From assembly GCA_021849615.1 (NCBI GenBank), contig JAJZSQ010000017.1:1-39475 (forward strand): a stretch of DNA of 39,475 nt. The letters run 5' to 3'. The stretch comes from Pseudomonadota bacterium. GTDB taxonomy: Bacteria; Pseudomonadota; Gammaproteobacteria; Steroidobacterales; Steroidobacteraceae. A program made the translations under genes and the position numbers. Shown here piece after piece: positions 4,115-32,803 of this stretch. Position 1 is the first letter of the stretch. Each line of letters opens with the position of its first letter. The notes beneath the pieces were generated by a model. The model saw nothing but the letters and a program-made list of their open reading frames with translations. It made no database searches and was not told the DNA's origin.

Positions 4115-7100
4115 GTGGTGATCGCGCTCGTCGTACCCACGTTGTACCTTCTGGCTGGCGCGATCGTCGGCGCGATGCTGCACGTTCTGGCGGCTGCGGC
4201 GGCGCGCCGGACGGACCGTTCGGCCCTGCTGGCGTTCGCGGGCATGGCCCTGTTCGCCGCGCTCGCCGCAATCTTCAGCGCCCAGAGCCTGCAGGCCGTG
4301 ACGGTCGCGCAGTTCCTGCGCGCCCTGAAACTGAATCTCGATTGCATCATTGTGGCGACGGGATGCGTCGCGGCATTCGTGGCGCTTTACGTTGGACATC
4401 ATGGGTGGCGGGCGCGTGCACTGCTCGGGGCCTGCGCGGCCGGCTGCGCGGCTCTGATCGTCGCCAACGAGGTGTTGCCGTACGGCATCCAGTATCGGCG
4501 CTTCAGCGGACTCACTGCGCTCAGGCTGCCCTGGGGCGAGACCGTCACGCGCGGCGTCGGCCAGAGCGGACTGCCGGCGTTCCTCGGGGTGCTGCTGCTC
4601 TACGGGGTGATGATTTACGCAACCTGGGCGCTGTGGGGGCACTACCGGCGCACTCGCGAGCCGGGCGCGCGGTGGCTGTTCATCGCCCAGGCGTGTTTCG
4701 TGCCGCTGGCGGTCTTCGGGCTGCTGGTGCGCCTGGCGGTCGTGCACGGCTTCGAGCCTGGACCGCTCGGGTTCCTGCTGGTGGTCGCGGCGATGAGTGC
4801 GACGGTCATGTGGGAGACGCAGCATGCGCTGCGGCTCTCCGAGCAGCGCTTCCGGGTACTGTTCGAGCGTGCCCCGGCGGCGATGGTGGCGATCGACGCG
4901 GCCAGCGGTCGCATCGTGCAGGCGAACGCCGTGGTCTGTGTGCTGAGCGGTTACGAGGCGGGTGAGCTGGTCGGCAAGACGGTCGGGGAGTTGAGCGAGG
5001 CGACCCAGTCGCCGCAGACGTCCGAGCGGTTTGCGGCGCTGCGCGCCGGGACCTGCGAGGAGCAGCGCCTGGAGTGGATTCTGCGCGACAGAAGCGGCGA
5101 GCCGCATGTCACCGATTGCTCAGTGACGGTGCAGCGGGATGCCGGTGGCCGGGTGGCGACACTGATTGCCTGTCTGATCGACGTCACCGAGCGCAAGCGC
5201 ATGGAATCGGCCTTGCGGCGCGAGAGCGGCAAGAACCTTGCGCTGCTGCGCAATTCGAGCGACGGTGTGCACATCCTCACGCCCGAGGGGCACCTGATCG
5301 AGGCGAGCGACTCGTTCTGCGAGATGCTCGGCTACCCGCGCGAGCAGGTGATCGGCATGCACGTGTCGCAGTGGGATGCGCTGTTCACGCCCGAGCAGCT
5401 CGTGGCGATCCTGCATGACCGCTTCGGTGAGCCGCGCCGCACGGTGCTCGAGACCCGGCACCGGCGCCGCGACGGCTCGGTCATCGAGGTCGAAGTCAGC
5501 TCCGTGGCGCTGCGCCTCGGCGACACGCCGGTGCTGTTCAATTCCTCGCGCGACATCACCGCGCGCAAGCACGCCGAGACGCGCCTGCGCGAGAGCGAAA
5601 TACGTCTGCGCACCCTGATCGAGCAGTCGCCCGTCGGCATCTCCTTCAGCCGTGATGGCACCACGATCGATGTCAACGCCCGCTACGCCGAGATGTTCGG
5701 GTACCGCAATGCCGCGGAAGTGCTCGACACCCCGTACCTGGATCGCATCGCACCGCGGGCACGCCCGGCGGTGAGCGAGATCATCGAGCGGCGCCGCGCC
5801 GGCCATGACGCGCCCGCCGAATATGAGACCGTCGGGCTGCGCCGCGATGGCAGCGAGTTCCCGGTGTTCGTCAGCGCACGGCGGATCGTCCTCGAGGACG
5901 GTCCGCTCACCGTGGCCTGCATGCTGGATTTCACCGAACGCAAGCAGTTCGAGGATCGGATCCGCCAGCTGGCCTTCTTCGATCAGCTGACCCGTCTGCC
6001 GAACCGCGAGCTGCTGCAGGATCGGCTGCGTCAGGCGATCTCCGCAAGCGTGCGGACCGACCGTCACGGGGCGCTACTGCTATTCGGACTCGACAACTTC
6101 AAGAGCATCAACGAGACGCTGGGTCACGCCGCCGGCGATGCTCTGCTGCAGCAGGTGGCCACCCGCCTCGCCGGGGAAGTGCGCGACGGTGATACGGTGG
6201 CGCGCATGGGCGGGGACGAGTTCATGGTGCTGCTGGAGGACCTAGGGCCGCAGCCCTGGGCGGCGGCGGCGCATGCCGAATCGTTCGGCCTGAAGATCAT
6301 GCGCATGCTCAGCTCGCCGCAGGGACCCCTGGGCGATCAGGTGCACGTCAGCTGCAGCGTCGGTGCGACGCTGCTGCCGGGGCAGCAGATGGGCGCACAC
6401 GATCTGATCCAGCAGGCCGACATCGCGCTGAACCAGGCCAAGGCGGCCGGGCGCAACACGTTGCGCTTCTTCGACCCGCACATGCAGCAGGTGGTCAGTT
6501 CACGTGCTGCGCTCGAGGGCGAGCTGCGCAAGGCGGTCGGTGCCGGGCAGTTCCTGCTGCACTATCAGCCGCAGGTCGATGCGACCGGGCGGCGCATTGG
6601 TGCCGAGGCGCTGTTGCGCTGGAACCATCCGGTGCGCGGTCTGGTGCCCCCGGGGGAGTACATCGGACTCGCCGAGGAGACGCAGATGATCCTGCCGATC
6701 GGCGAGTGGGTGATCGACACCGCGTGTGCGCAACTGGCGGCCTGGCGCGACGCGCCGGACACCCGGGAGCTGACGCTCGCGGTCAACGTCAGTCCGCTGC
6801 AGTTCCAGCAGCCGCAGTTCGCCGAGCAGGTGCGCCGCGCCATTGGCCGCCACGGCATCGAGGCGCGGCGGCTGAAACTCGAACTGACCGAGACGATGCT
6901 GCAAGGGGACGTGCAGAAGACGGTCATGACCATGCGGCGCCTGAAGGAAGAGGGCGTGCAGTTCTCGCTCGATGACTTCGGGACCGGCTACTCGTCCCTG
7001 CAGTATCTGAAGCAGCTACCGCTCGATCAGCTGAAGATCGATCAGACGTTCGTGCGCGACATCGTGACGGACCCGAACGACCGGGCGATCGTCGCGACCA

Positions 7101-7255
7101 TCATCGCCATCGCCCGCCATCTCGGCCTCGATGTGATCGCCGAGGGCGTCGAGACGCAGGCGCAGCTCGAGGTGCTGCGCGAGTGCGGCTGCAGCCGCTA
7201 CCAGGGCTATCTGTTTGGGCGTCCGGCCGAGGCGCAGCGGCTGTTCGGGACGTGA
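4115..7255 (+). CDS. Membrane PAS-PAS-PAS-GGDEF-EAL cyclic-di-GMP turnover protein
   Basis: The 1046-residue protein begins with about seven predicted membrane helices (residues 1-230), which form a sensor region I cannot assign to a named family. Three PAS domains follow (roughly 240-365, 370-490 and 495-615); the first two end in the typical TERK/TARK junctions and the third in FTERKQ. The GGDEF domain has an intact MGGDEF motif (698-703). The EAL domain has EALLR (831-835), NVSP, ELTE, DDFGTGYSSL, LKIDQTFV and EGVET, so both diguanylate cyclase and phosphodiesterase active sites look complete. The start is GTG 4115, because the ATG at 4110 meets a stop at once. The gene stands alone, convergent with hipA 17 bases away. 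The signal sensed and the net activity are unknown. Confidence 0.9.
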   Translation: MVIALVVPTLYLLAGAIVGAMLHVLAAAAARRTDRSALLAFAGMALFAALAAIFSAQSLQAVTVAQFLRALKLNLDCIIVATGCVAAFVALYVGHHGWRARALLGACAAGCAALIVANEVLPYGIQYRRFSGLTALRLPWGETVTRGVGQSGLPAFLGVLLLYGVMIYATWALWGHYRRTREPGARWLFIAQACFVPLAVFGLLVRLAVVHGFEPGPLGFLLVVAAMSATVMWETQHALRLSEQRFRVLFERAPAAMVAIDAASGRIVQANAVVCVLSGYEAGELVGKTVGELSEATQSPQTSERFAALRAGTCEEQRLEWILRDRSGEPHVTDCSVTVQRDAGGRVATLIACLIDVTERKRMESALRRESGKNLALLRNSSDGVHILTPEGHLIEASDSFCEMLGYPREQVIGMHVSQWDALFTPEQLVAILHDRFGEPRRTVLETRHRRRDGSVIEVEVSSVALRLGDTPVLFNSSRDITARKHAETRLRESEIRLRTLIEQSPVGISFSRDGTTIDVNARYAEMFGYRNAAEVLDTPYLDRIAPRARPAVSEIIERRRAGHDAPAEYETVGLRRDGSEFPVFVSARRIVLEDGPLTVACMLDFTERKQFEDRIRQLAFFDQLTRLPNRELLQDRLRQAISASVRTDRHGALLLFGLDNFKSINETLGHAAGDALLQQVATRLAGEVRDGDTVARMGGDEFMVLLEDLGPQPWAAAAHAESFGLKIMRMLSSPQGPLGDQVHVSCSVGATLLPGQQMGAHDLIQQADIALNQAKAAGRNTLRFFDPHMQQVVSSRAALEGELRKAVGAGQFLLHYQPQVDATGRRIGAEALLRWNHPVRGLVPPGEYIGLAEETQMILPIGEWVIDTACAQLAAWRDAPDTRELTLAVNVSPLQFQQPQFAEQVRRAIGRHGIEARRLKLELTETMLQGDVQKTVMTMRRLKEEGVQFSLDDFGTGYSSLQYLKQLPLDQLKIDQTFVRDIVTDPNDRAIVATIIAIARHLGLDVIAEGVETQAQLEVLRECGCSRYQGYLFGRPAEAQRLFGT

Positions 7256-7272: not shown

Positions 7273-8601
7273 TTACGATCGAGCGGCGGAATCCTTGCGG
7301 GGAAAGTCGAGCCGCAGCGCCGAGCGGATCTGATCGCGCTGCCGGGGCCACACGCCCGCCTGCTCTGCATACCTCGGCCAGCGCTGCACGACCGTGCGCA
7401 CCTCATCGAGCAGAGCTTCAGCACGTCCACGCTTCAGGCCCGCCGTCGCGGCGCAGGTGCGGAAATCCTCCAGGGTGAACCCGTCCCGTTTGCCATTGAT
7501 CGTCATCTGGTGTGAGCCGGTCCAATGCCCCACCGGGTTGTAGGCATAGGTCACGTCGAAGGCCGGGGCGAGTGACCACTCGCCCTGCGGGTTCATCAGG
7601 AACGCGATGTTCTTCACGTGGTCGTCCTGGTTTCGGGCGACGACGTTGAACACCATGCGGCGAAACAGCTGCTCGGTGGCCTGCATCGGCAACTGCAGCC
7701 GCCGGATGACGCCAAAAGCCTGCTCGTAGGAGTGCGCGCCGGCGGCATTGAAGTCCAGATCGGCGAGCGCAGCGAGCGACTGCATGTGCAGCTTGCCGCC
7801 GTCTTCGGTGCGATCGAAGCGGCGGGTCATGAAGTGCCGCCGTCCCCCTTCCTCCAGGATCCGGCATTCAGTCATCTGCAGGCCGGCGTCCCGTGCCATC
7901 AGCCCATAGGCATATTCGATGACGGTGTAGCCCTGGGGATCCTCCAGTTCCTTGTCGCGGTTGCCGCTCACGCCGTCGAACTTCAACAGCCAGTAGCCGA
8001 AGCCTGCCGGCGCGGTGACCTGCCCGGAACGCACCTCGTTGGTCTCGGGGTTCCAGGCGATGATGGCCTTGGCACGAGCACCGCCCGCCGAGGTTCCGAC
8101 CCGCAGCAGATCCTGGAGCGCACCGTTGCGCCGTGCGGCGGTAAACGAGTCGTGCAGTGCGCTGCGGCGCTCGAGGATGTCGGCGGCAAGTTCAACCAGA
8201 GCGTCGACGCGGATCGTGCTCGTGCGTCGATGCCGCGGACCGGTCACCGGGGCGAACTCCAGCGCGCCCATGCCGCGCGTACCGATGTAACAGAGGCGCT
8301 CGATGGCGTTGAACGTCTCGGGTGAGCGGCCTTGTGTGGCAAGCCAGGCGTTGATCAGTGCGGTGCCGAATTTGTCGGGCAACGAGTCGGCCAGCAGTCC
8401 CGGCAGGCCGTGGAAGGAGATCCGTGGGAGCGACGGGAACGTGTAGATGCGCGAGGCGAGCGGCATGCTGAGCGGGGCGACTTCGATCCTGCTGCGCGCG
8501 AAATGCGGATCGTACTGAAATGCCGCGACGTCGCGTCCCTCATCCAGGGAGACTGCGGCGATGCGCCGCCCCCAGAGTCTCACCTCGGCCGTCGTGCTCA
8601 T
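7273..8601 (-). CDS. hipA: HipA-family serine/threonine kinase toxin
   Basis: This 442-residue protein belongs to the HipA kinase family; E. coli HipA phosphorylates glutamyl-tRNA synthetase and causes growth arrest. The sequence shows a Gly-rich loop (GTSAGGARAK, 169-178), the catalytic NQDDHVKN segment (324-331; Asp326 and Asn331 match E. coli HipA Asp309 and Asn314) and a metal-binding Asp in APAFDVTY (Asp349). All key kinase residues are therefore present. The start at 8601 overlaps the hipB stop in an ATGA, which indicates translational coupling. A longer open frame reaches 8655 but runs into the hipB coding region. Whether the target is the same as in E. coli cannot be told. Confidence 0.88.
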   Translation of the reverse strand: MSTTAEVRLWGRRIAAVSLDEGRDVAAFQYDPHFARSRIEVAPLSMPLASRIYTFPSLPRISFHGLPGLLADSLPDKFGTALINAWLATQGRSPETFNAIERLCYIGTRGMGALEFAPVTGPRHRRTSTIRVDALVELAADILERRSALHDSFTAARRNGALQDLLRVGTSAGGARAKAIIAWNPETNEVRSGQVTAPAGFGYWLLKFDGVSGNRDKELEDPQGYTVIEYAYGLMARDAGLQMTECRILEEGGRRHFMTRRFDRTEDGGKLHMQSLAALADLDFNAAGAHSYEQAFGVIRRLQLPMQATEQLFRRMVFNVVARNQDDHVKNIAFLMNPQGEWSLAPAFDVTYAYNPVGHWTGSHQMTINGKRDGFTLEDFRTCAATAGLKRGRAEALLDEVRTVVQRWPRYAEQAGVWPRQRDQIRSALRLDFPRKDSAARS

Positions 8602-9023
8602 GCGCGGGGCTTGCCCTTCGCGGTGTCGGGCCGTTGTGCGGTGGGGGGATCCCACGTCCAGGGCTTCGCCGCGGCGGCATGGCCCGAAGACCCCGTGGGC
8701 TCGGCATCCTCCGCCGTTGCACGGGCGTGAGTCACGCGCTGGCGCTGTTTGCCCCGCAACTTCAGCTGCGCGATCGGACTCACCGGCAGTTCCGGGATCA
8801 GTCGATCGAGCCCTTCGATCAGCTGCAACACGCGCAGCACGCGGATGAAGGTGAGCAGCTCCGTGCCCTGTCCTCTCTCGATCCGCTCCAGGGTGCGCTT
8901 GCCGATGCCGGCCTGTTCGGCGAGCTCGGCCTGGGTGAGGTTTGCCGCGATGCGATGCTGCTCGATGCGCTGGCCCAGCGTCAGCAGGGCAGCGGGATCG
9001 GTCAGATCAGAATAGACTTTCAT
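8598..9023 (-). CDS. hipB: HipB-family antitoxin / XRE-type repressor
   Basis: The 141-residue protein has an N-terminal XRE helix-turn-helix (LGQRIEQHRIAANLTQAELA followed by EQAGIGKRTLERIERGQ, about 17-53). It is expected to bind HipA and repress the hipBA promoter. ATG 9023 is preferred; an upstream TTG at 9059 would add twelve residues, and neither has a strong Shine-Dalgarno sequence. About 60 residues after the folded part are rich in Ala, Pro, Thr and Lys and look disordered. Antitoxins often have such a protease-sensitive tail, but this one is long for the family (E. coli HipB is 88 residues). The stop overlaps the hipA start. Confidence 0.85.
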   Translation of the reverse strand: MKVYSDLTDPAALLTLGQRIEQHRIAANLTQAELAEQAGIGKRTLERIERGQGTELLTFIRVLRVLQLIEGLDRLIPELPVSPIAQLKLRGKQRQRVTHARATAEDAEPTGSSGHAAAAKPWTWDPPTAQRPDTAKGKPRA

Positions 9024-18771: not shown

Positions 18772-18816
18772 TTGACAATTCGGGAACTGGCCGGCAGTCT
18801 TGTGAAACCGGTTGCA
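18772..18816 (+). promoter_or_regulatory. Promoter -35 and LacI-type operator upstream of the second GH3 gene
   Basis: TTGACA (18772-18777) is followed by a poor -10 (CAGTCT at 18795-18800 with 17-base spacing). TGAAACCGGTTGCA (18803-18816) is a dyad with a central CG of the LacI/GalR type (TGNAANCGNTTNCA form). Its position relative to the -35 resembles that of the operator upstream of the GH3 gene at 1613, but the sequence differs. It sits in the divergent region and could also affect the MFS gene. The part 18584-18771 shows nothing else. Confidence 0.5.
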
Positions 18817-19154: not shown

Positions 19155-22064
19155 ATGACGTCTCGATTCACCCAACCTACCCGTGGCGTGCGGTTGTTGC
19201 TGCTGGCGGCCGTTGGCGTCGCAGCGCTCGGCATGAGCGCGTGCAGCACCAAGACCGAGCGGGCGGCGACACTGCCGGGGCCCGTGGGTACCGCTGCAAA
19301 CTGCCCCTGGCTCAATCGGCATTTGCCGATCGCACGGCGTGTGGCCCTGATCATGGGCAAGATGACCCTGGCGGATGAGATCGGGATCGTCGAGGGGCAT
19401 GGTACGCATCCGTACGTGGGTGACATCGCGGCGAACGCCGCGCTGTGTCTGCCGCGGATCGGGCTGGAGGATGGCCCGAACGGCGTCGGGGATGGCATGA
19501 CGGGTGTCACGCAGCTGCCCTCGGGCGCCTCGCTTGCGGCCACGTTCTCGCGCACCCTGGCCTACGCGTACGGACGGGTGATCGGCGCCGAGCAGGCGAC
19601 CAAGGGGTCGTCGGTCGATCTGGGCCCGACGGTGAACATCGACCGTGATCCGCGCTGGGGCCGGGAGTTCGAGAGCCTGTCGGAGGATCCGCATCTGACC
19701 GGCGAAATCGCCGCGGCCGAAATCCGCGGCATCCAGAGCGAGGGGACCATCGCCCAGGTGAAGCATTTCGATGCGTATAACCAGGAGACGAACCGCAACA
19801 CGCCGATGGATCAGGTCATCGTGTCCCGCCGCGCGCTGCACGAGATCTATATGCCGGCGTTTCGCACCGCCATCGATACCGGCAAAGTCGGCTCGATGAT
19901 GTGCTCCTATGCGACGGTGAACGGGCATTACAGCTGCCAGAACCCCTACCTGCTCACCGACGTGCTGCGCGGGGAGTGGAATTTCGGCGGGTTCGTCACG
20001 TCGGACTGGATCGCGATCCACAGCGTATCGGCGGCCGCGGCCGGCGCCGACCTCGAGGAGCCTACCGATCGGTTCTTCGGCCGCCCGCTGCAGCAGGCGG
20101 TGACTCAGGGCAAGATTCCGCGCGTGGTGCTCAACACCATGGTCGCGCGCATCCTGCAGCAGCTGTTCCGCTTCGACTTGTTCAATCATCCACGGTCCGC
20201 CACGACCACCGCGGTGGCGACCACGGCGGCGCATCAGGGGACCTCGACCCGGATCGCGGAAGCTGGCACGGTTCTGTTGAAGAACACCGGGCACCTGCTG
20301 CCGCTGGCGGGCACCGGGAAGATCGCGCTCATCGGTCCGGCGGCCTCGGCGCAGGTCACCACCGGCGGCGGCGGCAGCGCGCAGGTCGTCCCGTCGGCGA
20401 CGATCAGTCCGCTCGCCGGCATGGAGGCGCTCGCCGGCAAGTCCCGGATCACCTACACCCAAGGGCTGCCGACCCACGCCGAACTGAAGCCGATTCCCGG
20501 TGCGGACTTGTCGTGGTCCCATGCCGGCCCGAGCGCGGGCCGGAAGGATTGGGTGGCGCTGACGCTGCGGCCCCCGGAGACGGGCACCTACGTCATCGGT
20601 TTCACCAATGATTGCGGGTGCTACAGCGCCCTCAGCGTCGCGATCGACGGCCGGACGCTGATCAACAATCCGGGCACGCCGCCGAATCCGACCTATTCCG
20701 CCGCGGTTCACCTGAATAAAGGCCAAGCGTATCGGCTGACGGTGACGGGCGCCCTGATGAGCGCTGCGCTGCCGAAGGCGACCCGTGCGAAGCTCGAGAA
20801 GATACGCGGGCTGATGCGCACCGGCGGTCCGGGGGACGCCCTCACTTGGGCGAAGCCCACGACCGTGCGCGCCGATATTCAACAGGCGGTGGCCGCGGCG
20901 AAGGCGGCGCAGGTGGCAGTGGTCGTGGTGGCGGATGACACCGAGACCGAGGGGGCGGATCGGCCGGATCTGCGCCTGCCGTCGGCGCAGAACGCACTGG
21001 TGAGCGCGGTGGCGCGCGCCAACCCGCATACGGTGGTGGTGGTGCAGGCCGGCGCGCCGATCGCGATGCCGTGGCTGCACCAGGTGCCGGCCATCCTCGA
21101 CACCTGGTATCCGGGGCAGACCGACGGCACGGCGCTGGCGAACGTGCTGTTCGGCAAGGTCGATCCGAGCGGGCATCTGCCGGTGACTTTCCCGGTGAAG
21201 CTCGCGGACGTACCGGCCGCGAATCCGGCGCGTTTCCCCGGCATCGGCGGCAAGGTGCACTACTCGGAGGGCATTCTGGTCGGCTATCGGTGGTATGACG
21301 CCCGGCACATCAAGCCGATGTTTCCGTTCGGCTTCGGGCTGTCCTACACGCGCTTTCGGTACAGCGATCTGAAGGTGAGCCGCCGCGATGTCGACGGCGT
21401 GACGCCGATCCGGATTAGCGCGCGTGTGACCAATGACGGGCGCGTGAGCGGGGCGGATGTTGCGCAGCTGTATCTGAGGCTGCCGGCCGCCACCGGCGAG
21501 CCGCCGCGCAAGCTGGTGGGCTTTAAGCGCGTGACGCTCGCGCCGGGGCACTCGAAAGTAGTGCACTTCACCATCACGCCGCGTGAGGAGTGGTGGTGGG
21601 GCCATGACGGGTGGACCGAGACCGCCGGGACGTACCGGGTGTATGTCGGGGATGCCTCGGGGCTTGCCGAGCTGCCGCTGCGGGACTCGTACACCATGAC
21701 AACGTCGATTGGCGATCGGCAGGTATCGGTGGCGGCGCCAAAGGCCTTCAAGCCGGGCGTTCGTGCCCTGGTGCGGGTGACCCTCGGCGGCGGCGGCACC
21801 GAGACGCTGCAGGATGCGAGCGTGAGCCTGAAGGTTCCGGGCGGCTGGCATGTCGAGCCGGTCGGTCCGGTCAGCCGCGCTAAGCTTGCACCGCATGCTG
21901 CGCTGACGGCGCAATTCGCCGTGACGCCGCCGTCGTGGGGCGTTTCGCGGTACGTGACGCTCTATGGCACAGCCGATCTGTCCCACGCAGCCTGTGCCCA
22001 CGGGGCCGCGCATTGCGACGGCACTCGTCGTAATGGCGGCGCGATGGTGCGCCTCAGCCCATAG
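19155..22064 (+). CDS. GH3 beta-glycosidase lipoprotein with PA14-like and NEW3-like domains
   Basis: The 969-residue enzyme starts at ATG 19155, seven bases after AGGAG, and has a lipoprotein-like signal ending in GMSAC (Cys30). The GH3 barrel shows DGPNGVGDG (106-114), REFESLSEDPHLTG (170-183), KHF (203-205) and the nucleophile Asp284 in GGFVTSDW. The second domain is interrupted by a PA14-like insert (about 450-535: WVALTLRPPETGTYVIGF and GCYSALSVAIDGR), which in related GH3 enzymes shapes the substrate entrance. A fibronectin-III-like domain (about 750-850) and a C-terminal NEW3-like beta domain (about 870-960) follow. It diverges from a sugar porter. PA14-bearing GH3 enzymes include beta-glucosidases; the exact substrate is open. 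Confidence 0.92.
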   Translation: MTSRFTQPTRGVRLLLLAAVGVAALGMSACSTKTERAATLPGPVGTAANCPWLNRHLPIARRVALIMGKMTLADEIGIVEGHGTHPYVGDIAANAALCLPRIGLEDGPNGVGDGMTGVTQLPSGASLAATFSRTLAYAYGRVIGAEQATKGSSVDLGPTVNIDRDPRWGREFESLSEDPHLTGEIAAAEIRGIQSEGTIAQVKHFDAYNQETNRNTPMDQVIVSRRALHEIYMPAFRTAIDTGKVGSMMCSYATVNGHYSCQNPYLLTDVLRGEWNFGGFVTSDWIAIHSVSAAAAGADLEEPTDRFFGRPLQQAVTQGKIPRVVLNTMVARILQQLFRFDLFNHPRSATTTAVATTAAHQGTSTRIAEAGTVLLKNTGHLLPLAGTGKIALIGPAASAQVTTGGGGSAQVVPSATISPLAGMEALAGKSRITYTQGLPTHAELKPIPGADLSWSHAGPSAGRKDWVALTLRPPETGTYVIGFTNDCGCYSALSVAIDGRTLINNPGTPPNPTYSAAVHLNKGQAYRLTVTGALMSAALPKATRAKLEKIRGLMRTGGPGDALTWAKPTTVRADIQQAVAAAKAAQVAVVVVADDTETEGADRPDLRLPSAQNALVSAVARANPHTVVVVQAGAPIAMPWLHQVPAILDTWYPGQTDGTALANVLFGKVDPSGHLPVTFPVKLADVPAANPARFPGIGGKVHYSEGILVGYRWYDARHIKPMFPFGFGLSYTRFRYSDLKVSRRDVDGVTPIRISARVTNDGRVSGADVAQLYLRLPAATGEPPRKLVGFKRVTLAPGHSKVVHFTITPREEWWWGHDGWTETAGTYRVYVGDASGLAELPLRDSYTMTTSIGDRQVSVAAPKAFKPGVRALVRVTLGGGGTETLQDASVSLKVPGGWHVEPVGPVSRAKLAPHAALTAQFAVTPPSWGVSRYVTLYGTADLSHAACAHGAAHCDGTRRNGGAMVRLSP

Positions 22065-22095: not shown

Positions 22096-22127
22096 GGCCC
22101 CGCCGGAGATTCCGGCGGGGCCTTTTT
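22096..22127 (+). terminator. Intrinsic terminator after the second GH3 gene
   Basis: A perfect 12-bp stem (GGCCCCGCCGGA, loop GAT, TCCGGCGGGGCC) is followed by TTTTT at 22123-22127. It starts 32 bases after the GH3 stop and separates this unit from the TonB-receptor locus. Confidence 0.9.
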
Positions 22128-22756: not shown

Positions 22757-22786
22757 TTGACACGCCGAAAACAGCAGGCGTATTTT
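22757..22786 (+). promoter_or_regulatory. Second, proximal promoter of the TonB receptor gene
   Basis: TTGACA (22757-22762), an 18-base spacer and TATTTT (22781-22786) precede an A/T-rich leader of about 110 bases that ends in AGGGGAG before ATG 22906. No operator dyad is visible here, so this promoter may give constitutive expression. Confidence 0.55.
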
Positions 22787-22905: not shown

Positions 22906-25900
22906 ATGTCGCATCGCAAAGAGAAGCGCGCCAGGCGTTCGTACTGCGCGTTTAATACGGGAATTTTGACAGCGCTGACGATCGAGGCGCTGATGCTGGC
23001 GCCGCAGACCGTGCGCGCGGCGGTCCCGGTCCAGAAGTCATCGTCGGCGCGCACGACGACGCGCGCCTTCACCCGCCAGACGTTGCTGGCCCGAAACGGC
23101 ACCCAGCCTGTCACTGGCGCGGCAATGACAGCGTTGACATCGGCGTCGGGCGCGCGCGGCGCATCGGCCGCAGCCTCGAATGGCGGCGCGGCCGCTTCGG
23201 GCACTTCAACCGGGCCGACGCAGCTGAAGGAAGTCATCGTGTCGGGCTTTCGCGAGTCGCTGGAAAGCGCGCTGAACGCAGAGCGCCGCGCGATTCAGCC
23301 GATCGAAGTGGTGAGCCCGGAGGACCTCGGGCAGATGCCCGATCAGGACGTCGCCGAGTCCCTGCAGCGGCTGCCCGGCATTCAGATCAACCGCGCCAAT
23401 GGGTTTGGCACCCAGGTGCTCGTCGAGGGTCTGAGTCAGAACATCATCGAACTGAACGGCGATGACTTTCTCACCGGCCGCGAATTCTATACCTCGGGGG
23501 AGGCCGCCAACGGCGGCGCTGGGGCTAACTTCCAGTACAATTCACTGGAGAGCGTTCCGAGCTCCGAGGTCAGCGGCATCGACGTGGCACTGAACCCGAC
23601 GGCAGCCGATCTGTCCGGTGCGATCGGCGGTACCATCAACCTGCGCACGCAGAACCCGCTCACCCTGCCGATGGGGCTCACCCTGGGCGGCAACGTCAAG
23701 GGCGTGGACTCACAGGGCACGAGCGGCATCACGCCGAACGCGTCGCTGGTCGCGGGGTACAAATTCAACAGCCGCTTTGCGGTCTACGCCAGCGTCTCCT
23801 ACTCCAAGTACAAGACCTTGGACAAGGAGTTTGAGGCCTACAACCGCACGCCGTGGGTGACCACCAATTCCGCGCTGACGCCCCCGGCAAGTGGCGGGAC
23901 GACGCTCGCCGATTATTCGCAGCTCTCTCAGCATTACATCCTGCCGGAGCTCGCGTACCTCAGCAACATCACCGACAATCGCAACAACGAAGGGGCGACG
24001 CTGGGACTGGCCTGGCGGGTGACGAATTCCGTCACCACGCAGCTGCGCTGGTTCTACTCCGGGGAGCGGGACACGCAGATCAATTACTCCAATAAGATCT
24101 ACTTCAATGGGGCGGGCAACACGGCGTTCCCGATCACCGGCATCGATCCGGCGTATCCGTACTCGATCGACGGCAACGGAGTCGTGCAGAGCGGCACCTT
24201 TACCGCCAACGGCGCCGAAACGGCCACGCTCTATCAGGGCACGAGTGATCACGCGAACAACTTCCAGTGGCAGACTGATTTCAACAACGGCGGTGCGCTG
24301 AGCGGTAATCTCGGGGTCTTCTACTCGAAGATGAGCTCGAACATGCAGGCGGCCCAGCAGGACACCGAACACGGCCTGTACGAGACCTCCGCGGGCATAC
24401 CGACCAGTCCTGGCGCGCCGGGCTGCAACAACGGCGGTGCGGTCTGCGGGACGGATCCGTATGCCAGCCCGGGATACAATTTCACGTACTCGAATGGCGG
24501 CACGTCGGGTCTGCCGACGGTCTCCTATCCGACCAACGTGCTGTCCAATCCGGCCTACACGACCTTCAAGTCGGCCTGGGCGTGGGCAAACCTTGGTCAG
24601 GAGACGCTCAAGGCCGTCAAGCTCAATCTGCATTGGAAGCCGTCCGGCGTCCGTGCGACGACGATTTCGGCGGGGGCGCGCTACGGCACGAATGACGTCA
24701 GCGAGACGTTCGGGCGCTACCTGATCAACGGCAACGTGATCGGAATTCAGCCCGGATGCGCCACCTGCAGCACCTGGCTGTACTATCAGGATCCGGGCTA
24801 TTCAAACCCGAATATCCCGTATTCGACTGGCACCAGTGCGCCGGGCCTGATGGAGACGGTGAACAATTTCGGGTCAGGCCCGATGACGGTGAAGAATCCG
24901 TACGCCGGTGGCATGACCAATCCGTCCACCTTCCTCAATACCGTGTGGAACGGTGCCGGGGTGACGAACAACACCGAGCGGTTCTTCCCGGACACGCTGA
25001 GCTCGTATTCGGTCAACTATCGGCAGATTGCGTCCTACCTGATGGCGGATATCGGCTCGCCGGAAGATCACTATCACATCAATTTCGGCGTCCGGGTCGT
25101 CAACACCAAGATCACGATCGATGGTGCGCAACAGGCGCCGGTGCCGTCGTATTACGGTACGGCGTCCTGGAATGGCGTGAATTCGAACAATATCCCCATC
25201 CAGAACGTGCAGAGGTACACCGATATCCTGCCGACGTTCAACTACACGCTCGAGTTGACCGACTCTCAGCAGGTGCGACTGAGTGCGGCCCGTGTGACCG
25301 CGCCGGTCAACCTCGCGCAGCTCGGCGTCGGTGAGGCGTACAACTTCACCCGCTCCGGTTCCGGTACGAACTTCATCTTTGCCGGCGGCAGCGGTGGCAA
25401 TCCCGCGCTGCAGCCGTACCGGGCGGATCAGTTCCTGCTGGGGTACTTCAACTACTTCGCGCGTGGTGCGGTGGCCGAACTGCAGGGCTTCTACAAGCAG
25501 GTCGACAGCTTCCCGTACACCGCGAACGTGGCGACGACCGTCAATGGCGTCACTGCGAACGTCACGCAGCCGGAGAATGGCAAGGGCGGTGACATCTACG
25601 GGGTGATCATCGGCACGGAATACCCGTTCACGGGTCTGCTGAGGGGATTCGGCGTCGACTTCAATTACACGTTGTCGAAGTCGGAGATGAACCTGAACGT
25701 CCCGCTGACGTACACCAACAGCATCCCGTTCCCCGGCGTGTCGGAGAATTCGCTGGCGGCGACGGTGTACTACCAGCGCTACGGGTTCTCCGGACGCTTG
25801 GCGTACACGTATCGCTCCAAGGCGATCAGCGACAATGTCGAGGGTTCGACGTTCAGTATCCAGGGCGCGAACGGTCAGCCGCAGGCGCTGGAGGTCTGGC

Positions 25901-26085
25901 AGGCTCCCTACGGGGAACTTGATGCGCAGGTGGGTTACGACTTCAATAAGCACTTCGGCATAGTCCTCTCGGCGACGAATCTCACCGATGCGGCGACGCA
26001 CGACTATCTGCAGTGGCCGAACCAGCCCTTGACCTACGACAACTGGGGCCGGCGATTCTTCTTCGGATTCCACTTCCGCAACTGA
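22906..26085 (+). CDS. TonB-dependent outer-membrane receptor
   Basis: The 1059-residue receptor has a signal peptide (about 1-39), an unusual Ala/Ser/Gly/Thr-rich linker (41-105) and a TonB-box-like EVIVSG (109-114). The plug domain (about 130-240) contains DLGQMPDQDVAESLQRLPG and LVEGLSQNIIELNGD. The long 22-strand barrel follows, with cysteine pairs in presumed outer loops (GCNNGGAVCG and GCATCST), and the protein ends in FFFGFHFRN. The size and plug sequence match the TonB receptors of xanthomonads and Caulobacter that take up plant or animal oligosaccharides. GGAG lies seven bases upstream of the ATG. A halogenase-like gene follows after seven bases, so the two are one operon. Confidence 0.93.
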   Translation: MSHRKEKRARRSYCAFNTGILTALTIEALMLAPQTVRAAVPVQKSSSARTTTRAFTRQTLLARNGTQPVTGAAMTALTSASGARGASAAASNGGAAASGTSTGPTQLKEVIVSGFRESLESALNAERRAIQPIEVVSPEDLGQMPDQDVAESLQRLPGIQINRANGFGTQVLVEGLSQNIIELNGDDFLTGREFYTSGEAANGGAGANFQYNSLESVPSSEVSGIDVALNPTAADLSGAIGGTINLRTQNPLTLPMGLTLGGNVKGVDSQGTSGITPNASLVAGYKFNSRFAVYASVSYSKYKTLDKEFEAYNRTPWVTTNSALTPPASGGTTLADYSQLSQHYILPELAYLSNITDNRNNEGATLGLAWRVTNSVTTQLRWFYSGERDTQINYSNKIYFNGAGNTAFPITGIDPAYPYSIDGNGVVQSGTFTANGAETATLYQGTSDHANNFQWQTDFNNGGALSGNLGVFYSKMSSNMQAAQQDTEHGLYETSAGIPTSPGAPGCNNGGAVCGTDPYASPGYNFTYSNGGTSGLPTVSYPTNVLSNPAYTTFKSAWAWANLGQETLKAVKLNLHWKPSGVRATTISAGARYGTNDVSETFGRYLINGNVIGIQPGCATCSTWLYYQDPGYSNPNIPYSTGTSAPGLMETVNNFGSGPMTVKNPYAGGMTNPSTFLNTVWNGAGVTNNTERFFPDTLSSYSVNYRQIASYLMADIGSPEDHYHINFGVRVVNTKITIDGAQQAPVPSYYGTASWNGVNSNNIPIQNVQRYTDILPTFNYTLELTDSQQVRLSAARVTAPVNLAQLGVGEAYNFTRSGSGTNFIFAGGSGGNPALQPYRADQFLLGYFNYFARGAVAELQGFYKQVDSFPYTANVATTVNGVTANVTQPENGKGGDIYGVIIGTEYPFTGLLRGFGVDFNYTLSKSEMNLNVPLTYTNSIPFPGVSENSLAATVYYQRYGFSGRLAYTYRSKAISDNVEGSTFSIQGANGQPQALEVWQAPYGELDAQVGYDFNKHFGIVLSATNLTDAATHDYLQWPNQPLTYDNWGRRFFFGFHFRN

Positions 26086-26092
26086 GGCTGAC

Positions 26093-27625
26093 ATGACCGA
26101 CGAGCGGCGAATTCGTTCGATCGCCATCGTCGGCGGGGGAACCGCCGGGTGGCTCGCGGCCAGCATACTGGCCCGGGCCGCCCCGGCGGGGACCGCGATC
26201 AGCGTGATCGAATCGGGGCAGATCGCCCCGATCGGGGTGGGCGAGGCGACCATTCCGCCGTTCATCGATCTGCTGCGCTTCCTGGGAATCGATGAGCCCG
26301 AGTTCGTACGCACGACCGGTGCAACCTACAAGCTCGGGATCGTGTACCGGGACTGGTCGCTGCCCGGCCACGAGTATTGGCATCCATTCGGAACGTTCGG
26401 CACGACGATCGAGCGCCGGCCGTTCCATCATTATTGGCACCGCGCGCTCGCCGCGAACCGAAATCCCCGGATCGGGGAGTTCAGTCTCTGCGCGGCGCTC
26501 GGTGAGGCCGGGAAGTTCCGCTTCCCGGACCCGCGCGCCCAGGGAGCGGCGGCGGGCCTGCGCTATGCGTTGCATTTTGACGCAACGACAGTGGCGGGTT
26601 TTTTGCGTCAATTTGCCGCCGGACTCGGCGTGCAGCGCCTTGAGCGCACGGTGGCGACGGCGACGCGTCGGGCGGATGGCTTCATCGAGGAACTCGTGTT
26701 CGCCGATGGAGGACGTCTGCAGGCGGATCTTTATATCGACTGCAGCGGCTTTCAGGGAGTGCTCATCGAGCAGGTCCTGCACAGCGGATACGTCGACTGG
26801 CGCGCGCTTTTGCCGTGTGATCGGGCGGTCGCGGCGCCGACGGCGATCACGGGCAACCGGCCACCGTATACCCTCGCGAGCGCGCGTGCATCCGGCTGGC
26901 AGTGGCGCATTCCGCTGCAGCACCGCTTCGGCAACGGGTACGTGTTCTCGAGTGCGCATGTCAGTGACGCTGCGGCGACCGATGATTTGCTGGGCAAGGC
27001 GGGCACGCCGCTCGCCGAGCCGCGCGTGCTGCGCTTCACGGCCGGCCATCGCTGCCACCTCTGGAGCCACAATTGCGTCGCGCTAGGTCTGGCCTCGGGC
27101 TTTCTCGAGCCGCTCGAGTCGACGAGCATCCAGCTGGTCATCAATGGCGTGTTCAATCTGCTCGATCATTTCCCCGATCGGGCGTTCGATCCGGCCAATA
27201 TTGCGGCCTACAACCGGGAGCTGACCGAGGAGCTCGAGCAGATCCGCGATTTTCTGATCCTGCATTACTGGGGGACTCCGCGCGATGACACCCCGTTCTG
27301 GCGGGACGTGCACGCGGTGCGGTTGCCGGAGAGTCTGCGCCAGCGGATCGAGCTGTATCGGGGTACGGGGCGGATCAGGACCCGCCCCGGTGAACTGTTT
27401 ACCGATCTGTCCTGGTTCTACATCTTTGCCGGGCTCGGCATGCGTCCCGCGGCACCGGACCCGATGATCGATGAGGCCGTGCTCGCGCGCGCCGAGAACG
27501 CGCTCTATTCGCTGCGCCAGAACATCGCGCGCGAGGTCCGCGCGGCTCGCTCGCACGAGAGCTACTTCGCCCCGGGCCAGCCGGCGGCCGCGCAGGGCCT
27601 GCCGGCGTCCGCCGAAACGGCCTGA
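26093..27625 (+). CDS. Tryptophan-halogenase-like flavoprotein
   Basis: This 510-residue protein belongs to the flavin-dependent halogenase family. It has the FAD-binding IAIVGGGTAGWLAAS (10-24), a Lys80 in TYKLGIVYRDW at the place of the catalytic Lys79 of PrnA, the family motif WQWRIP (269-274) and GFLEPLEST (336-344), which carries the conserved glutamate. Key residues of a halogenase are therefore present. Family members next to TonB receptors are common in glycan-scavenging proteobacteria, but their substrate and even their halogenating activity are unproven. Start and spacing (GAGG just before ATG, seven bases after the receptor stop) support co-translation with the receptor. It converges on the FHS permease gene with 14 bases between stops. 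Confidence 0.88.
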   Translation: MTDERRIRSIAIVGGGTAGWLAASILARAAPAGTAISVIESGQIAPIGVGEATIPPFIDLLRFLGIDEPEFVRTTGATYKLGIVYRDWSLPGHEYWHPFGTFGTTIERRPFHHYWHRALAANRNPRIGEFSLCAALGEAGKFRFPDPRAQGAAAGLRYALHFDATTVAGFLRQFAAGLGVQRLERTVATATRRADGFIEELVFADGGRLQADLYIDCSGFQGVLIEQVLHSGYVDWRALLPCDRAVAAPTAITGNRPPYTLASARASGWQWRIPLQHRFGNGYVFSSAHVSDAAATDDLLGKAGTPLAEPRVLRFTAGHRCHLWSHNCVALGLASGFLEPLESTSIQLVINGVFNLLDHFPDRAFDPANIAAYNRELTEELEQIRDFLILHYWGTPRDDTPFWRDVHAVRLPESLRQRIELYRGTGRIRTRPGELFTDLSWFYIFAGLGMRPAAPDPMIDEAVLARAENALYSLRQNIAREVRAARSHESYFAPGQPAAAQGLPASAETA

Positions 27626-27639
27626 GCGCCGGCGCCGGA

Positions 27640-28971
27640 CTACAGCTCGCCGCGCGCGGGGGCGAGCCTATCTGATCGGATGGCGCCGATCGCGAAGGCG
27701 CAGATGCACAGGTAGGCCAGCATCGGTACCAGGTACGCGGACCGAAGGCCCGTGGCGTCGGCCACCTGCCCGACGATCACCGGCAGCACGGCGCCGCCGA
27801 CGATGGCCATGCACAGCAGACCCGAGGTCGCCGCGTTCGAGGCGCTCGAGCGCTCCAGGGTCAGTGTGAAGATGACCGGGAACATGATCGAATTGAACAG
27901 GCCCACGGCGAGGGCGGCCCAGCCGGCGAGCGCTCCGGGCGCGTGGCTCACGGTCAGGCACAGGGCGGCGGCGATGGCCGCGGTGCCCGCGAGCAGCACC
28001 GGTGCGCGCAGCCGGCGCAGCAGTCCGCTGCCGATGAAGCGGCCGACCATCGCGCCGCCCCAGTACAGACTGACCCATTTGCCGGCTTGCTCGAGCGGGA
28101 TATCGAATACGTCCGGGCGATGCAGGAAAATCGCCATCGCGCTGCCGATCGAGACTTCCGCGCCCACATAGAGAAAGATGGCGGCCGCGCCGAGCACCGC
28201 CCAGCGCGAGCGCAATGCTTCGCGCAGCGCGCCGCTGGCCGGTGCCGAGGCGTGCGCGTGCGCGTGTACCGAATCGTGTTGCGGCGTGGACTGCGGCAGG
28301 CGGAGCTTGCCGCGCACCGAGGTGATGAACAGCGCCAGCAGCGCGATGAGCGCGGCCACGGCAAGAAATGCGACGTCGATGTGGTGCAGGGAGGTCATGC
28401 GCTGCGCCGCGGTGATGGGCCCGGCGTGCAGGGTGAAGATCCCGCCGGCGAGCAACACGCTGGAGGCGAGATACGGGGCGATGGCGGTGCCGAGCGAATT
28501 GAAGGCCTGCGAGAGCGTCAGGCGGAAGTGAGAGCGCTCCGGCGGCCCCAGTGCGGCGGCGAGCGGATTGGCGGCGACCTGCAGGATGGTGATGCCGCTG
28601 GCGATGATGAACAGCGCCACCAGCACCTGGGCAAAGGTGCCGATGGCGGTCGCGCAGGGGACCCAGAGGCACCCGGCGATCATGATCCCGAGGGCGGTGA
28701 GAATCGATCGGGCGTACCCCAGGCGCTTCAGCAGCGCTGCGGCGGGCAGCGAGATCACCCCGTACGCCATGAAGAAGGCGAACTGCGTGAGCATCACTTC
28801 CGCATAGGAGAGCTGGAAGATCGATTTCATCGCCGCGATCAGCGGATCGACCGTGACCGTGATGAAGCCCCACGCGAAAAAGAGCGTGGTAATCGAGGCG
28901 AATGCGCCCCGTTGCGCTCCGTGAGGAGTAACCGTGGCGTGGGCGGGCGAGGGCAGGGGCTCAGTGCGCAT
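27640..28971 (-). CDS. FHS-family sugar permease (FucP/GlcP/NagP-like)
   Basis: The 443-residue inner-membrane carrier belongs to the fucose:H+ symporter branch of the MFS. Typical stretches are FFAWGFITVTVDPLI in helix 1, FFMAYGVISLPAAALLKRLGY, then QVAANPLAAALG and LTLSQAFNSLGTAIAP. Related carriers import glucose, galactose, fucose or N-acetylglucosamine. It lies 90 bases downstream of the GH2 gene on the same strand and is probably transcribed with it. That would make it the uptake system for the monosaccharide or short product formed in the periplasm. The NagR-like operator upstream of the GH2 gene makes an amino sugar one possible cargo, but this is inference. Confidence 0.88.
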   Translation of the reverse strand: MRTEPLPSPAHATVTPHGAQRGAFASITTLFFAWGFITVTVDPLIAAMKSIFQLSYAEVMLTQFAFFMAYGVISLPAAALLKRLGYARSILTALGIMIAGCLWVPCATAIGTFAQVLVALFIIASGITILQVAANPLAAALGPPERSHFRLTLSQAFNSLGTAIAPYLASSVLLAGGIFTLHAGPITAAQRMTSLHHIDVAFLAVAALIALLALFITSVRGKLRLPQSTPQHDSVHAHAHASAPASGALREALRSRWAVLGAAAIFLYVGAEVSIGSAMAIFLHRPDVFDIPLEQAGKWVSLYWGGAMVGRFIGSGLLRRLRAPVLLAGTAAIAAALCLTVSHAPGALAGWAALAVGLFNSIMFPVIFTLTLERSSASNAATSGLLCMAIVGGAVLPVIVGQVADATGLRSAYLVPMLAYLCICAFAIGAIRSDRLAPARGEL

Positions 28972-29061: not shown

Positions 29062-32000
29062 TCAATGACCGTGCTCGATCGGCACGCTCGTGCCGAGGGC
29101 ATTCCATCCCTGCAGCTGCACGCGTGCGCAGCGCGCGCCCTGGCGCGGGCAGCGGATGCGGATCTGCCGGTGCTCACCGGGCATCAGTGTCACGAAGTTC
29201 GTGCCGTAGTAGGACGGCAGGACGCGGTGACCGTGGGCATCGAGCGCAGTGACCTCGAGTGCCACGGCGGGTTCCGTGCCGCGATTGGTGAGCGTGACCG
29301 TGTAGCGATGCTCGCCGCCGGTGGCATCCGAGTCTGATCGCTGCGCGGTGACGACGACCGGCTGCGCGCGCAGCGTGTCGAGCGCACGCAGGCTCTTGGA
29401 ATGCGCGCCCTGCCAGTAGACGTTTTCGCTGAGCACGCGGCCGGCGCGGTTCGCGAGGCGCAGTTGCACGAACACCAGTGGACGGGTGCGCAGCCAGCGC
29501 TGCAGGGGCAGGGCGTGCAGCGTGGTCACGGCGTTGGCGACGGCGTTCACGGGTAGCGCTTGCTGTGCGAGCACTCCTCCGTGCAGGGACACGATGCGCA
29601 CCCGCACCGTCAGATCCGGTTGCGCGGTCCGGGTGGTGTTGACCACCGCGAGAGCAAAATCCGGCAGGTTCATCTGCACGTGCAGCGGCTGGCAGGCCTC
29701 CTTGACGCCGTAGTACGCCCCGGCGGTGGCGTAGTCCGAGGTGTAGATCTGCCAGATGTTGCTCGGCCAGGCCGGCTGGGTCATCCACAGCAGCCGCCCG
29801 CTGTTGCGCTGCCAGAGACCTGCGTTGAAGCCTTCGAAGATCGCCCGGTAGCTGACGTAGTCCATCAGCTGCGCGCGCCGCTCGAAGCCGGCGAGCGAGC
29901 GTGGCGTGCCGAGCTCGCGGTCCAGGGCGCGCATGAACACGCGCACATCGCCGTTGCCGCCGAAATTCCAGTCGTGATAGGCCCAGGTGTCACTCGGCGG
30001 CCAGAGATCCGCGCGCGGCATCATGGCTTCCAGGGAGCGCAGCGAGGCGAGCGAGGGCGTGCCGACTTCCACGGAGAACCCGCGCGCGAGCCGGGTGAAA
30101 TACTGGCGTGGCGGCCGATAGTCGTACGGTCCGCTGCCTTGCAGGTTCACCCGGTTCGAGCTCGGCAGGTACAGCCGGGTGCCGTCGAGGGTTTGGATCA
30201 GCCGATCGAGGCCGTCGTTGATGATCGGCTGTGGAACGCCCTCGTTGCGCCCGAACCAGACCGCGATCGACGGATGGTTGCGGTAGCGCTCGATCACGTC
30301 GCGGGCATTGGCGAGGAACAGCCGCGGGTTTTCGGCCTGCAGCTGGAAGTTCTGGGTCGATTCCCAGAAATCGTTCAGCACCAGCAGACCGTAGCGGTCG
30401 GCCAGGCGGTAGAAAGACGGTTCGGTGTCCTGGCCGAGCCAGTTGCGGATGATGTCGAGGTTCGCCTGGCGGGTGAGGCGGAAATACGGCGCGAGTCGCC
30501 GGCGCGAGATGCGCTTCATCGCATCATCGGTGCCCCAGCTGCCGCCGCGAGCGGCGATCCGTACGCCGTTGACGCGGATCACCAGGTACGGCGCGAGCGA
30601 GGTGTCGCCCACCGGGCGTACGGCTGGGGAGTGCTCCCCGGCGCGCGTCAGTGAGGCGGCCCACCCGTTGGGGGTGCGGTTGATGGCGCGGTGGCGCACG
30701 TCGATCAGTGGGCCGGTGCCGTCGAGCCGTCCGACGGTCGGATCGACGACGACCCGGCGCAGTTGGCCCCGGCGACCGAATAGCGACAACTCATAGCTGA
30801 TCTCACGGATGCCGAAGTGCAGCGTGCGCTCATCGGCGGCGCGCCGGCGGCCGGACGGCAGCGCATCGTCGTAGACACGCAGCGTCAGCCGGTACAGGTA
30901 CGGAGCGCCGTAGCCGTTCGGCCACCACAGGTGCGGATGGCGCACGTGCAGCGCCGGAAACGAGGCCGGTGTCAGGTGGATGCGCGTCGTGCCTGGCGGC
31001 AGGTGCACCGTGTCGCGCACTGTGATGCCGCCGAAGCTCGCCACCAGCGTCGCCGGCACGGCGTGCCGATGCCGGTTCTCAAGCGAGACGCCGATCGACA
31101 CGTCGGCGCGGTTGAGTTTCGGCAGCGGCAGATGCGTCACGACGTGCGGGGCGTGCAGCAGCAGCTTGCCGCTCGAGTGAATCACCACCTGCTGCCACAG
31201 GCCGGTATCGCGATCGCGCACCGGCGGCATCCAGTCCCAGCCCTCCGTGGCGATGAACGTCGGTCCGTCGAGTGCGAGGTGTCCGCCGTTGTTGCCCGGG
31301 CCGGCGGCGATCGACTTCTCGTAGGGGATGCCGGGGTGCGGCGGCGGCGCGACGCGCACCGCCAGCACGTTCAGCCGGTCCGGGATGATGTCGGCGCTCA
31401 CGTTGAACCGGCCGCGCCGGAACGCCCCGCGTGTCGTGCCGATCCGCTTGCCATTGAGCCAGATCGTGCCGGCGTAATTGATGCCATCGAAGCGCAGCGT
31501 GAGCTCGCGGCCGTCCCAGCGCTTCGGAGCCACGAACGCGGTGCGGTACCAGTAGGCCTGGCGCGCGAGCCGCTCGGGGATGAGCAGATCATTCAGCCCG
31601 TAGTACGGGTCAGGGTAGCGCCCGCGGGTCACCAGTGTGGTGAGCACCGTGCCGGGAACGACGGCCCGGTACCAACTCGCTGTGGAATACGTGTCCTCCG
31701 AGAGCACCGCACCGCCGACGGGTACCTTCGGGGCTGGCTCGAGCTGCCATCGCTCGAGCACCCAGCGGCCAGGGGCGCTGTGGCGCAGGGCCGGTTGCGG
31801 GCGCACCGGTTCGGCCTGCGGGTAGGTTCGGCGGCTCGCCGCCGCGGGGGGCTGCTGCCAGTGCCCGAGCGGGGTGCGCGACTTCGGCAGTGTCCAGGCG
31901 GGTTGCGGATGCTGCAGGCCGCGCCAGGAGCGTTTCTGCAGCGGCCAGCCGGCGCCGACGCGATAGAACTCGATGAGCCCGACATCGGGCTTTGCCGCGG

Positions 32001-32628
32001 CGAGGCGTTGGAGCGCCGCGGCGCTCAGTGCGCGCCCCTGGATGCGCCAGTGCGCGACGGAGCCGCCGAAATGTGGCCCCGCGCCGAGTGGCGCGAGGGT
32101 GACTTGGGCCGGCGCGGCCGCAGGCGTCGCGCTGCGCACGGCGACCTGACGACCGTCGACATAGAGGCGCGCGACCTGTCCGTCATATGTCGCGGCGAGC
32201 GCACTCCAGGTGCCGGGACGCAGCGGCACCGTCGTGCGCACCGACGCGCCGCCGCTGAGGTTCAGTTGCACGCGGCCGTCCGCGAGGGCCAGGCAGTCAC
32301 AGCGTTCGCCGCGGACCGTCCCGAGGCCGCCGAGGATCACGGTGCCCGGTTGATGCAGCGCGGGTCGCACCCAGGCGCTGATCGACCATGCCGCGCCGGG
32401 TTGCAGCAGCGGCGCGGTGCCGGGCAGCGGCCGCTTCAAGCCAATGCCGCCGGCGAGGAAGGTGGCGTTGTAGGGACCGAGCGCGTGCAGCGTGGGACGG
32501 TGTGCGCTCGCGCCGATCGCGGCGAGGGTGTGGAGCCCCAGAAACACGCTCAGCGCCGCAGCGCCGATCGGAATGTGCCGGCGCCAGCGGTACGGGCTCG
32601 ATCCGGGGCGACGAATGCTTGTGCTCAC
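29062..32628 (-). CDS. Large exported GH2 glycosidase with LamG-like N-terminal domain
   Basis: The 1188-residue enzyme starts at GTG 32628, six bases after AGGAG. An N-terminal signal anchor (about 17-42) is followed by a LamG/concanavalin-like domain (about 55-215: WSISAWVRPAL, WSALAATYDGQVARLYVDG). The GH2 sugar-binding domain (about 285-480: YWYRTAFVAPKRWDGR, GTIWLNGKRIG), the immunoglobulin-like domain with HLWWPNGYGAPYLYRL and the TIM barrel come next. Predicted acid/base is Glu796 in WFGRNEGVP and the nucleophile Glu854 in FSVEVGTPS. The C-terminal third is beta-rich. The barrel resembles the endo-beta-mannosidase/exo-glucosaminidase part of GH2 (WPSNIWQIY, YYGVKEACQPLHVQMNL). Beta-mannoside and beta-glucosaminide are the main candidate substrates. 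It heads an operon with the FHS permease. Confidence 0.88.
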   Translation of the reverse strand: MSTSIRRPGSSPYRWRRHIPIGAAALSVFLGLHTLAAIGASAHRPTLHALGPYNATFLAGGIGLKRPLPGTAPLLQPGAAWSISAWVRPALHQPGTVILGGLGTVRGERCDCLALADGRVQLNLSGGASVRTTVPLRPGTWSALAATYDGQVARLYVDGRQVAVRSATPAAAPAQVTLAPLGAGPHFGGSVAHWRIQGRALSAAALQRLAAAKPDVGLIEFYRVGAGWPLQKRSWRGLQHPQPAWTLPKSRTPLGHWQQPPAAASRRTYPQAEPVRPQPALRHSAPGRWVLERWQLEPAPKVPVGGAVLSEDTYSTASWYRAVVPGTVLTTLVTRGRYPDPYYGLNDLLIPERLARQAYWYRTAFVAPKRWDGRELTLRFDGINYAGTIWLNGKRIGTTRGAFRRGRFNVSADIIPDRLNVLAVRVAPPPHPGIPYEKSIAAGPGNNGGHLALDGPTFIATEGWDWMPPVRDRDTGLWQQVVIHSSGKLLLHAPHVVTHLPLPKLNRADVSIGVSLENRHRHAVPATLVASFGGITVRDTVHLPPGTTRIHLTPASFPALHVRHPHLWWPNGYGAPYLYRLTLRVYDDALPSGRRRAADERTLHFGIREISYELSLFGRRGQLRRVVVDPTVGRLDGTGPLIDVRHRAINRTPNGWAASLTRAGEHSPAVRPVGDTSLAPYLVIRVNGVRIAARGGSWGTDDAMKRISRRRLAPYFRLTRQANLDIIRNWLGQDTEPSFYRLADRYGLLVLNDFWESTQNFQLQAENPRLFLANARDVIERYRNHPSIAVWFGRNEGVPQPIINDGLDRLIQTLDGTRLYLPSSNRVNLQGSGPYDYRPPRQYFTRLARGFSVEVGTPSLASLRSLEAMMPRADLWPPSDTWAYHDWNFGGNGDVRVFMRALDRELGTPRSLAGFERRAQLMDYVSYRAIFEGFNAGLWQRNSGRLLWMTQPAWPSNIWQIYTSDYATAGAYYGVKEACQPLHVQMNLPDFALAVVNTTRTAQPDLTVRVRIVSLHGGVLAQQALPVNAVANAVTTLHALPLQRWLRTRPLVFVQLRLANRAGRVLSENVYWQGAHSKSLRALDTLRAQPVVVTAQRSDSDATGGEHRYTVTLTNRGTEPAVALEVTALDAHGHRVLPSYYGTNFVTLMPGEHRQIRIRCPRQGARCARVQLQGWNALGTSVPIEHGH

Positions 32629-32803
32629 GACACGCTCCTGCGCGGTCGATGCCCGCGTCTTGAAAACACTCTCGCCCGCGCATTGCGAGGGCATCGACGC
32701 GGCGCATCACGCCGCCCTTGCGTCTGCGGCTCGGCGGTCCGCGTCAGCGCGGGCACCCGAGAGCGTGCGAGCCGTGGGTCGCGGCGTTGCGCGTCCACCC
32801 GCT

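Follow-up and report, generated by a model that had tools for sequence, protein, structure and literature searches.

A BrvH/Xcc4156-like flavoprotein encoded beside a TonB-dependent receptor in a glycan-uptake locus

The closest described relatives of the flavoprotein analysed here are the flavin-dependent halogenases (FDHs) BrvH, from Brevundimonas BAL3 (PDB 6frl), and Xcc4156, from Xanthomonas campestris (PDB 6y1w). Both have short loops and brominate indole derivatives, not free tryptophan; both prefer bromide in vitro and were published without an assigned native substrate, for which their authors propose molecules of peptide size (PMC5945002, PMC7336383). The BrvH gene adjoins a second halogenase gene, and the paper describing it makes no mention of TonB (PMC5945002). 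As established for relatives, enzymes of this family make a flavin hydroperoxide from FADH2 and O2; halide attacks it, and a conserved lysine and glutamate steer the hypohalous acid (PMC5945002). A third solved structure, 9luq, is given by its entry title as a tryptophan halogenase of Pseudoalteromonas sp. L11; no paper on it was found in the literature search.

Kinship with BrvH and Xcc4156

The flavoprotein of the window (the whole stretch of DNA analysed, 39,475 nucleotides) is a full-length PF04820 protein, with 544 bits. The motifs named in the first-pass annotation are intact and were placed as follows: GGGTAGW at residues 14-20, Lys80, WQWRIP at 269-274, and Glu339 and Glu342 within LEPLESTS. 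K80, W269, W271, E339 and E342 are invariant across 42 aligned homologues. With the PF04820 profile, GxGxxG, the catalytic lysine, WxWxIP, the glutamate and the fold all present, the protein is a member of the FDH superfamily, and by analogy its intact catalytic residues make the family chemistry likely.

The AlphaFold2 (AF2) model (pLDDT 92.8) has BrvH, Xcc4156 and 9luq as its top PDB matches (TM 0.90-0.91), with RebH, Thal and PrnA ranking behind them, even if the TM of RebH and PrnA is still ~0.9. The same three structures are the closest by sequence (9luq is the best match, at 422 bits), and PrnA and RebH are clearly behind. Identity reaches 42% in the structural match with BrvH and 40-41% with Xcc4156, compared with 32-34% for RebH and PrnA. 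In a maximum likelihood tree of 55 rows (quick search, SH-aLRT support only, pyrrole halogenases outside), a 35-row clade (support 99) unites the flavoprotein with BrvH, Xcc4156 and 9luq, whereas PrnA, PyrH and the Trp-6 halogenase 6nsd occupy a branch of their own (support 95). Both tryptophan-binding loops, 1 and 2, are short or absent in the alignment (loop definitions from PMC7336383). By clade membership and short loops, the flavoprotein is a new member of the already known BrvH/Xcc4156 group; neither its placement nor its loops are those of the PrnA/RebH or PyrH/SttH groups, which supports a position outside the tryptophan halogenases.

The window protein has its fold in common with PrnA, RebH and PyrH, along with the FAD motif, WxWxIP and the catalytic Lys and Glu. 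At the halide site, however, the alignment places Ser345 at a position that is Gly in PrnA. BrvH has the LEPLESTSI halide site in common with the flavoprotein, as well as the short loops; for BrvH, indole bromination has been assayed. Xcc4156 likewise has an open site without the Trp-closing loops, but carries Asn where the flavoprotein has Ser345. The members of another branch, the 2pyx/9ltb/9lu2 group, are receptor-linked too, typically with SapC, but differ by EPLEA(S/T) changes at the halide site. One homologue of the window genome (L085, 4599-7256 on G000:C176) lies in an unusually long frame of 899 aa, on the PrnA/PyrH side of the tree.

The receptor-flavoprotein pair and its surroundings

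The features of the locus are listed in Table 1. The receptor scores 440 bits with TIGR01782, above the curated cut-off of 310, and 35.5 bits with the Plug profile; its AF2 model is a beta-barrel (mean pLDDT 71). The flavoprotein gene starts seven bases past the receptor stop, exactly as first annotated. A GAGG overlapping this stop, just 5' of the flavoprotein ATG, could serve as the ribosome site. Because the gap is so short, a GAGG precedes the second ATG, no terminator was reported between the two genes and a weak promoter-like site lies upstream, the receptor and the flavoprotein are likely carried on one transcript. The GH3 gene is set apart from the receptor by the terminator-like hairpin.

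Table 1. Features of the window discussed in the text (positions from the first letter of the window)
Feature	Position	Strand	Details
Large PAS-GGDEF-EAL protein	4115..7255		
HipA-like kinase	7273..8655		HipA_C, Couple_hipA
Sugar transporter, MFS, PF00083	17153..18583	-	326 bits
LacI-type operator-like palindrome TGAAACCGGTTGCA	18803..18816	.	Exact match to TGNAACCGGTTNCA; predicted only
GH3 glycoside hydrolase, lipoprotein-like signal	19155..22064	+	GH3 N and C domains, Fn3-like, PA14; likely start ATG 19155, read from the sequence, within longer ORF 18831-22064
Strong intrinsic terminator-like hairpin, 3' of GH3 gene	22096..22122	+	12-pair stem, 11 G-C, then TTTTT
Sigma-70-like match, 5' of receptor	22757..22786	+	TTGACA-18-TATTTT; weak, 2 found vs 1.6 expected, near chance
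TonB-dependent receptor, TIGR01782 (Xanthomonas/Caulobacter type)	22906..26085	+	ORF 1059 aa; signal-peptide-like N terminus
Receptor Tyr399 codon, candidate modified or sugar-contacting aromatic	24100..24102	+	Alignment column 871; AF2 strand 376-399
Receptor/flavoprotein junction	26086..26092	+	GGCTGAC, 7 nt (sequence)
FDH homologue, PF04820, BrvH/Xcc4156-like	26093..27625	+	ORF 510 aa
MFS transporter, convergent with flavoprotein gene	27640..28971	-	MFS_1 83.6 bits
GH2-type glycoside hydrolase	29062..32694	-	Profile matches: exo-beta-glucosaminidase Ig domain, laminin-G-like domain

With the GH3 and GH2-type hydrolases and two MFS transporters around the pair, "glycan-uptake locus" is a fair description. 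The sugar transporter and GH3 genes diverge, and the palindrome TGAAACCGGTTGCA sits between them. By eye, LacI-like regulator genes are also seen at other homologue loci of the same genome. No signal peptide is visible by eye in the flavoprotein, which is hence probably cytoplasmic and would need to encounter the receptor before export.

Recurrence beside TonB-dependent receptors

The first-pass annotation held that such genes are found repeatedly next to TonB receptors in glycan-using proteobacteria, and the analysis bears this out. Among 40 related genomes, 69 of the 105 family members have a TIGR01782 receptor within 6 kb, and 35 are directly 3' of one on the same strand; another 33 are on contigs without a detected TIGR01782 receptor, many of these contigs being short. 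Enzyme and receptor copy numbers are correlated (rho 0.73), in a sample where 25 of the 40 relatives come from one genus. Another order, sampled with 25 genomes, has 23 of its 33 members within 6 kb of a receptor, and the enzyme is 3' of the receptor for all 16 linked receptors. When 94 genomes were sampled evenly across the class, the enzyme was present in five, the receptor in four and both in three; with the window genome removed, the overlap of two has a hypergeometric chance of ~0.004 (calculated by hand).

The recurrent gene orders are TF, TFF, TFSC, TSCF and TFSCF (T, receptor; F, enzyme; S, SapC; C, Cupin_8). Modules of receptor, homologue, SapC (PF07277) and Cupin_8 are seen at L265-L267, L270-L273, L279, L043, L044 and L207, and four halogenase homologues stand in tandem beside one receptor at L027, L028 and L041. 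In Caulobacter vibrioides (L034), two homologues come after a receptor. The sampling is uneven, the 67 public loci having been picked with patterns derived from the window flavoprotein. The linked enzymes do not form a separate clade, an arrangement that had been put forward for checking: they turn up on most branches of the tree, of which the known tryptophan halogenases are one small branch. Enzyme and receptor distances are correlated (Mantel 0.40, against a null maximum of 0.075), a value that vertical descent of the operon could explain alone; the simple correlation drops to 0.16 among distant pairs.

The window genome (3.2 Mb, 87% complete) has about ten family members. Among the neighbours of these copies are TonB receptors, xylose isomerase, GH31 and GH32, as well as a pfkB kinase together with SapC; a PTS-like gene, read from sequence only, is close to one copy. 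The genome has two Cupin_8 genes, and both lie at homologue loci, as judged from their positions.

The BrvH/Xcc4156 kinship, the missing Trp loops, the receptor linkage and the lack of a match to the NRPS condensation domain in the 87%-complete genome make it very probable that the flavoprotein assists glycan uptake as an accessory enzyme and is no natural-product halogenase. The earlier proposal of a role outside the tryptophan halogenases and tied to transport is partly supported, in its first part by the trees and the missing loops, and in the tie to receptors by the recurrence beside them; an action on transport components or on the glycan stays hypothetical. No paper describing a link of halogenases with TonB, SapC, cupins or glycan utilisation surfaced in a search whose partial coverage is no proof of novelty, and neither Blanvillain 2007 nor the Shewanella sugar-utilisation paper mentions halogenases. 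The literature searched did not contain the general point, that sugar-uptake receptors have the BrvH/Xcc4156 group largely as their accessory, and novelty is not claimed for it. If the whole group travels with sugar-uptake receptors, only a few proteins or imported compounds need to be considered in the search for its substrate, and the question becomes directly testable. Moreover, such abundant genes should not be annotated as tryptophan halogenases or taken as signs of antibiotic synthesis.

Possible targets of the enzyme

The preferred reading, with a probability of about 0.4, is that the flavoprotein serves a TonB-receptor glycan-uptake operon as an accessory enzyme and, by chemistry of the BrvH/Xcc4156 type, acts on a protein-borne aromatic, most likely on that of the cognate receptor. 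An aromatic on a protein is the best guess because the site is open, no single glycan is common to the neighbours and the partners are the receptor, SapC and Cupin_8. Following the family chemistry, the enzyme would receive FADH2 from a separate reductase and consume O2 as well as, probably, halide, and the product would be hypohalous acid, or the flavin hydroperoxide only; Lys80 and Glu342 would direct this oxidant onto an electron-rich aromatic at the open, solvent-exposed site. It is a guess that the cognate receptor, as a precursor still in the cytoplasm, most likely offers the target in one of its aromatic side chains, and a further guess that the modification tunes glycan binding or assembly. 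A short-chain flavin reductase (PF01613) is present in 13 of 14 control genomes and was not detected in the window genome, possibly because of incompleteness, in a search that had Fre-type reductases of the E. coli kind outside its scope. A broader proposal is speculative and rather unlikely: FDH-like enzymes, sometimes with SapC and the Cupin_8 hydroxylase-like protein, would be a module that halogenates or hydroxylates receptor aromatics post-translationally, and the tryptophan halogenases would then be a side branch of a protein-modifying family.

An alignment of 74 linked receptors (two of which appear to be duplicates: L013 and L014 equal L197 and L198) and 29 unlinked ones was scanned for aromatic columns that track linkage. 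Column 871 ranks first among 689 aromatic column traits, with Trp in 52 of the 74 linked and three of the 29 unlinked receptors. Having been picked as the best of many, this column was retested on the receptors of the other order, where Trp is found in 11/16 linked vs. 8/44 unlinked receptors (Fisher p 4e-4, kinship ignored). In independent pairs, nearly all the informative ones go in the expected direction, with only about four of them and a median p of 0.125. A module gene was sought within ~4 kb downstream of the eight unlinked Trp-bearing receptors of this order and was found for none. At this column, both Trp and Tyr are missing from eight of the linked receptors. The window receptor has Tyr: Tyr399 closes barrel strand 376-399 of the AF2 model, before a long loop of low confidence that, from the strand order, should face outward. 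Aromatics at the rim and outer loops of sugar receptors commonly bind sugar. Sugar binding could therefore explain the Trp enrichment equally well, the linked receptors being maybe simply sugar receptors, and column 871 is a lead only as regards a modified residue. A second enriched Trp column (2230) failed the independent-pairs test.

Among the rival explanations, the least probable makes the enzyme a normal natural-product halogenase of indole or tryptophan, with the other genes of its pathway located elsewhere and the receptor importing the product. The PF04820 assignment and the full catalytic set would suit such an enzyme, but it stands apart from PrnA, PyrH and the Trp-6 halogenase, it has no Trp-binding loops and most of its paralogues are beside receptors or sugar genes. 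The NRPS condensation domain (PF00668) had no match in the 87%-complete window genome, polyketide genes being outside this search; hence, the combination that would have spoken against the first annotation, a placement among tryptophan or pyrrole halogenases and a natural-product cluster elsewhere, was not encountered, in a tree that covered PrnA, PyrH and 6nsd but no pyrrole halogenases. It is very improbable as well that a conserved glycan operon carries the gene as a neutral passenger, functionally untied to the receptor. Descent can preserve synteny, and many copies of the 40-genome sample belong to one genus, but the linkage spans Alphaproteobacteria as well as two gammaproteobacterial orders and comes with differing enzyme clades, arrangements and tandem copies. 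Furthermore, purifying selection acts on both genes: compared with the two closest orthologues, dN/dS is 0.10-0.15 (enzyme) and 0.03-0.08 (receptor).

The main rival, possible but doubtful, has the enzyme act on a small aromatic or aglycone imported with the glycan (an aryl glycoside or a phenolic ester), in detoxification or catabolism. Such a role would account for the receptor linkage without protein modification; glycoside import would fit the GH3 and GH2 hydrolases and the sugar transporters nearby, and BrvH takes small indoles in vitro (PMC5945002). On the other hand, the sugar genes beside the other copies are so varied that they imply no common aromatic ligand and speak against one common aromatic glycan substrate, and an aromatic-catabolism gene was not recognised beside the window copy. 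An activity independent of halide is unlikely, though less so than the neutral passenger: a flavin monooxygenase or oxidase on a halogenase scaffold would hydroxylate an aromatic residue or molecule, like the protein-Trp oxygenases QhpG, LodB and GoxB. In its favor, the profiles of QhpG (E 1e-4; 1.5e-9 for a paralogue) and LodB show a likeness below threshold, with 21 bits against a curated cut-off of 240 and 18.7 against 400, respectively. The halide-site Gly is replaced by Ser or Ala in nearly all receptor-linked members, and the EPLEASA members are also changed at the residues preceding this position. However, BrvH and Xcc4156, with Ser and Asn at the halide site, both brominate, and the invariance of WxW, Lys80 and Glu342 likewise speaks against this rival.
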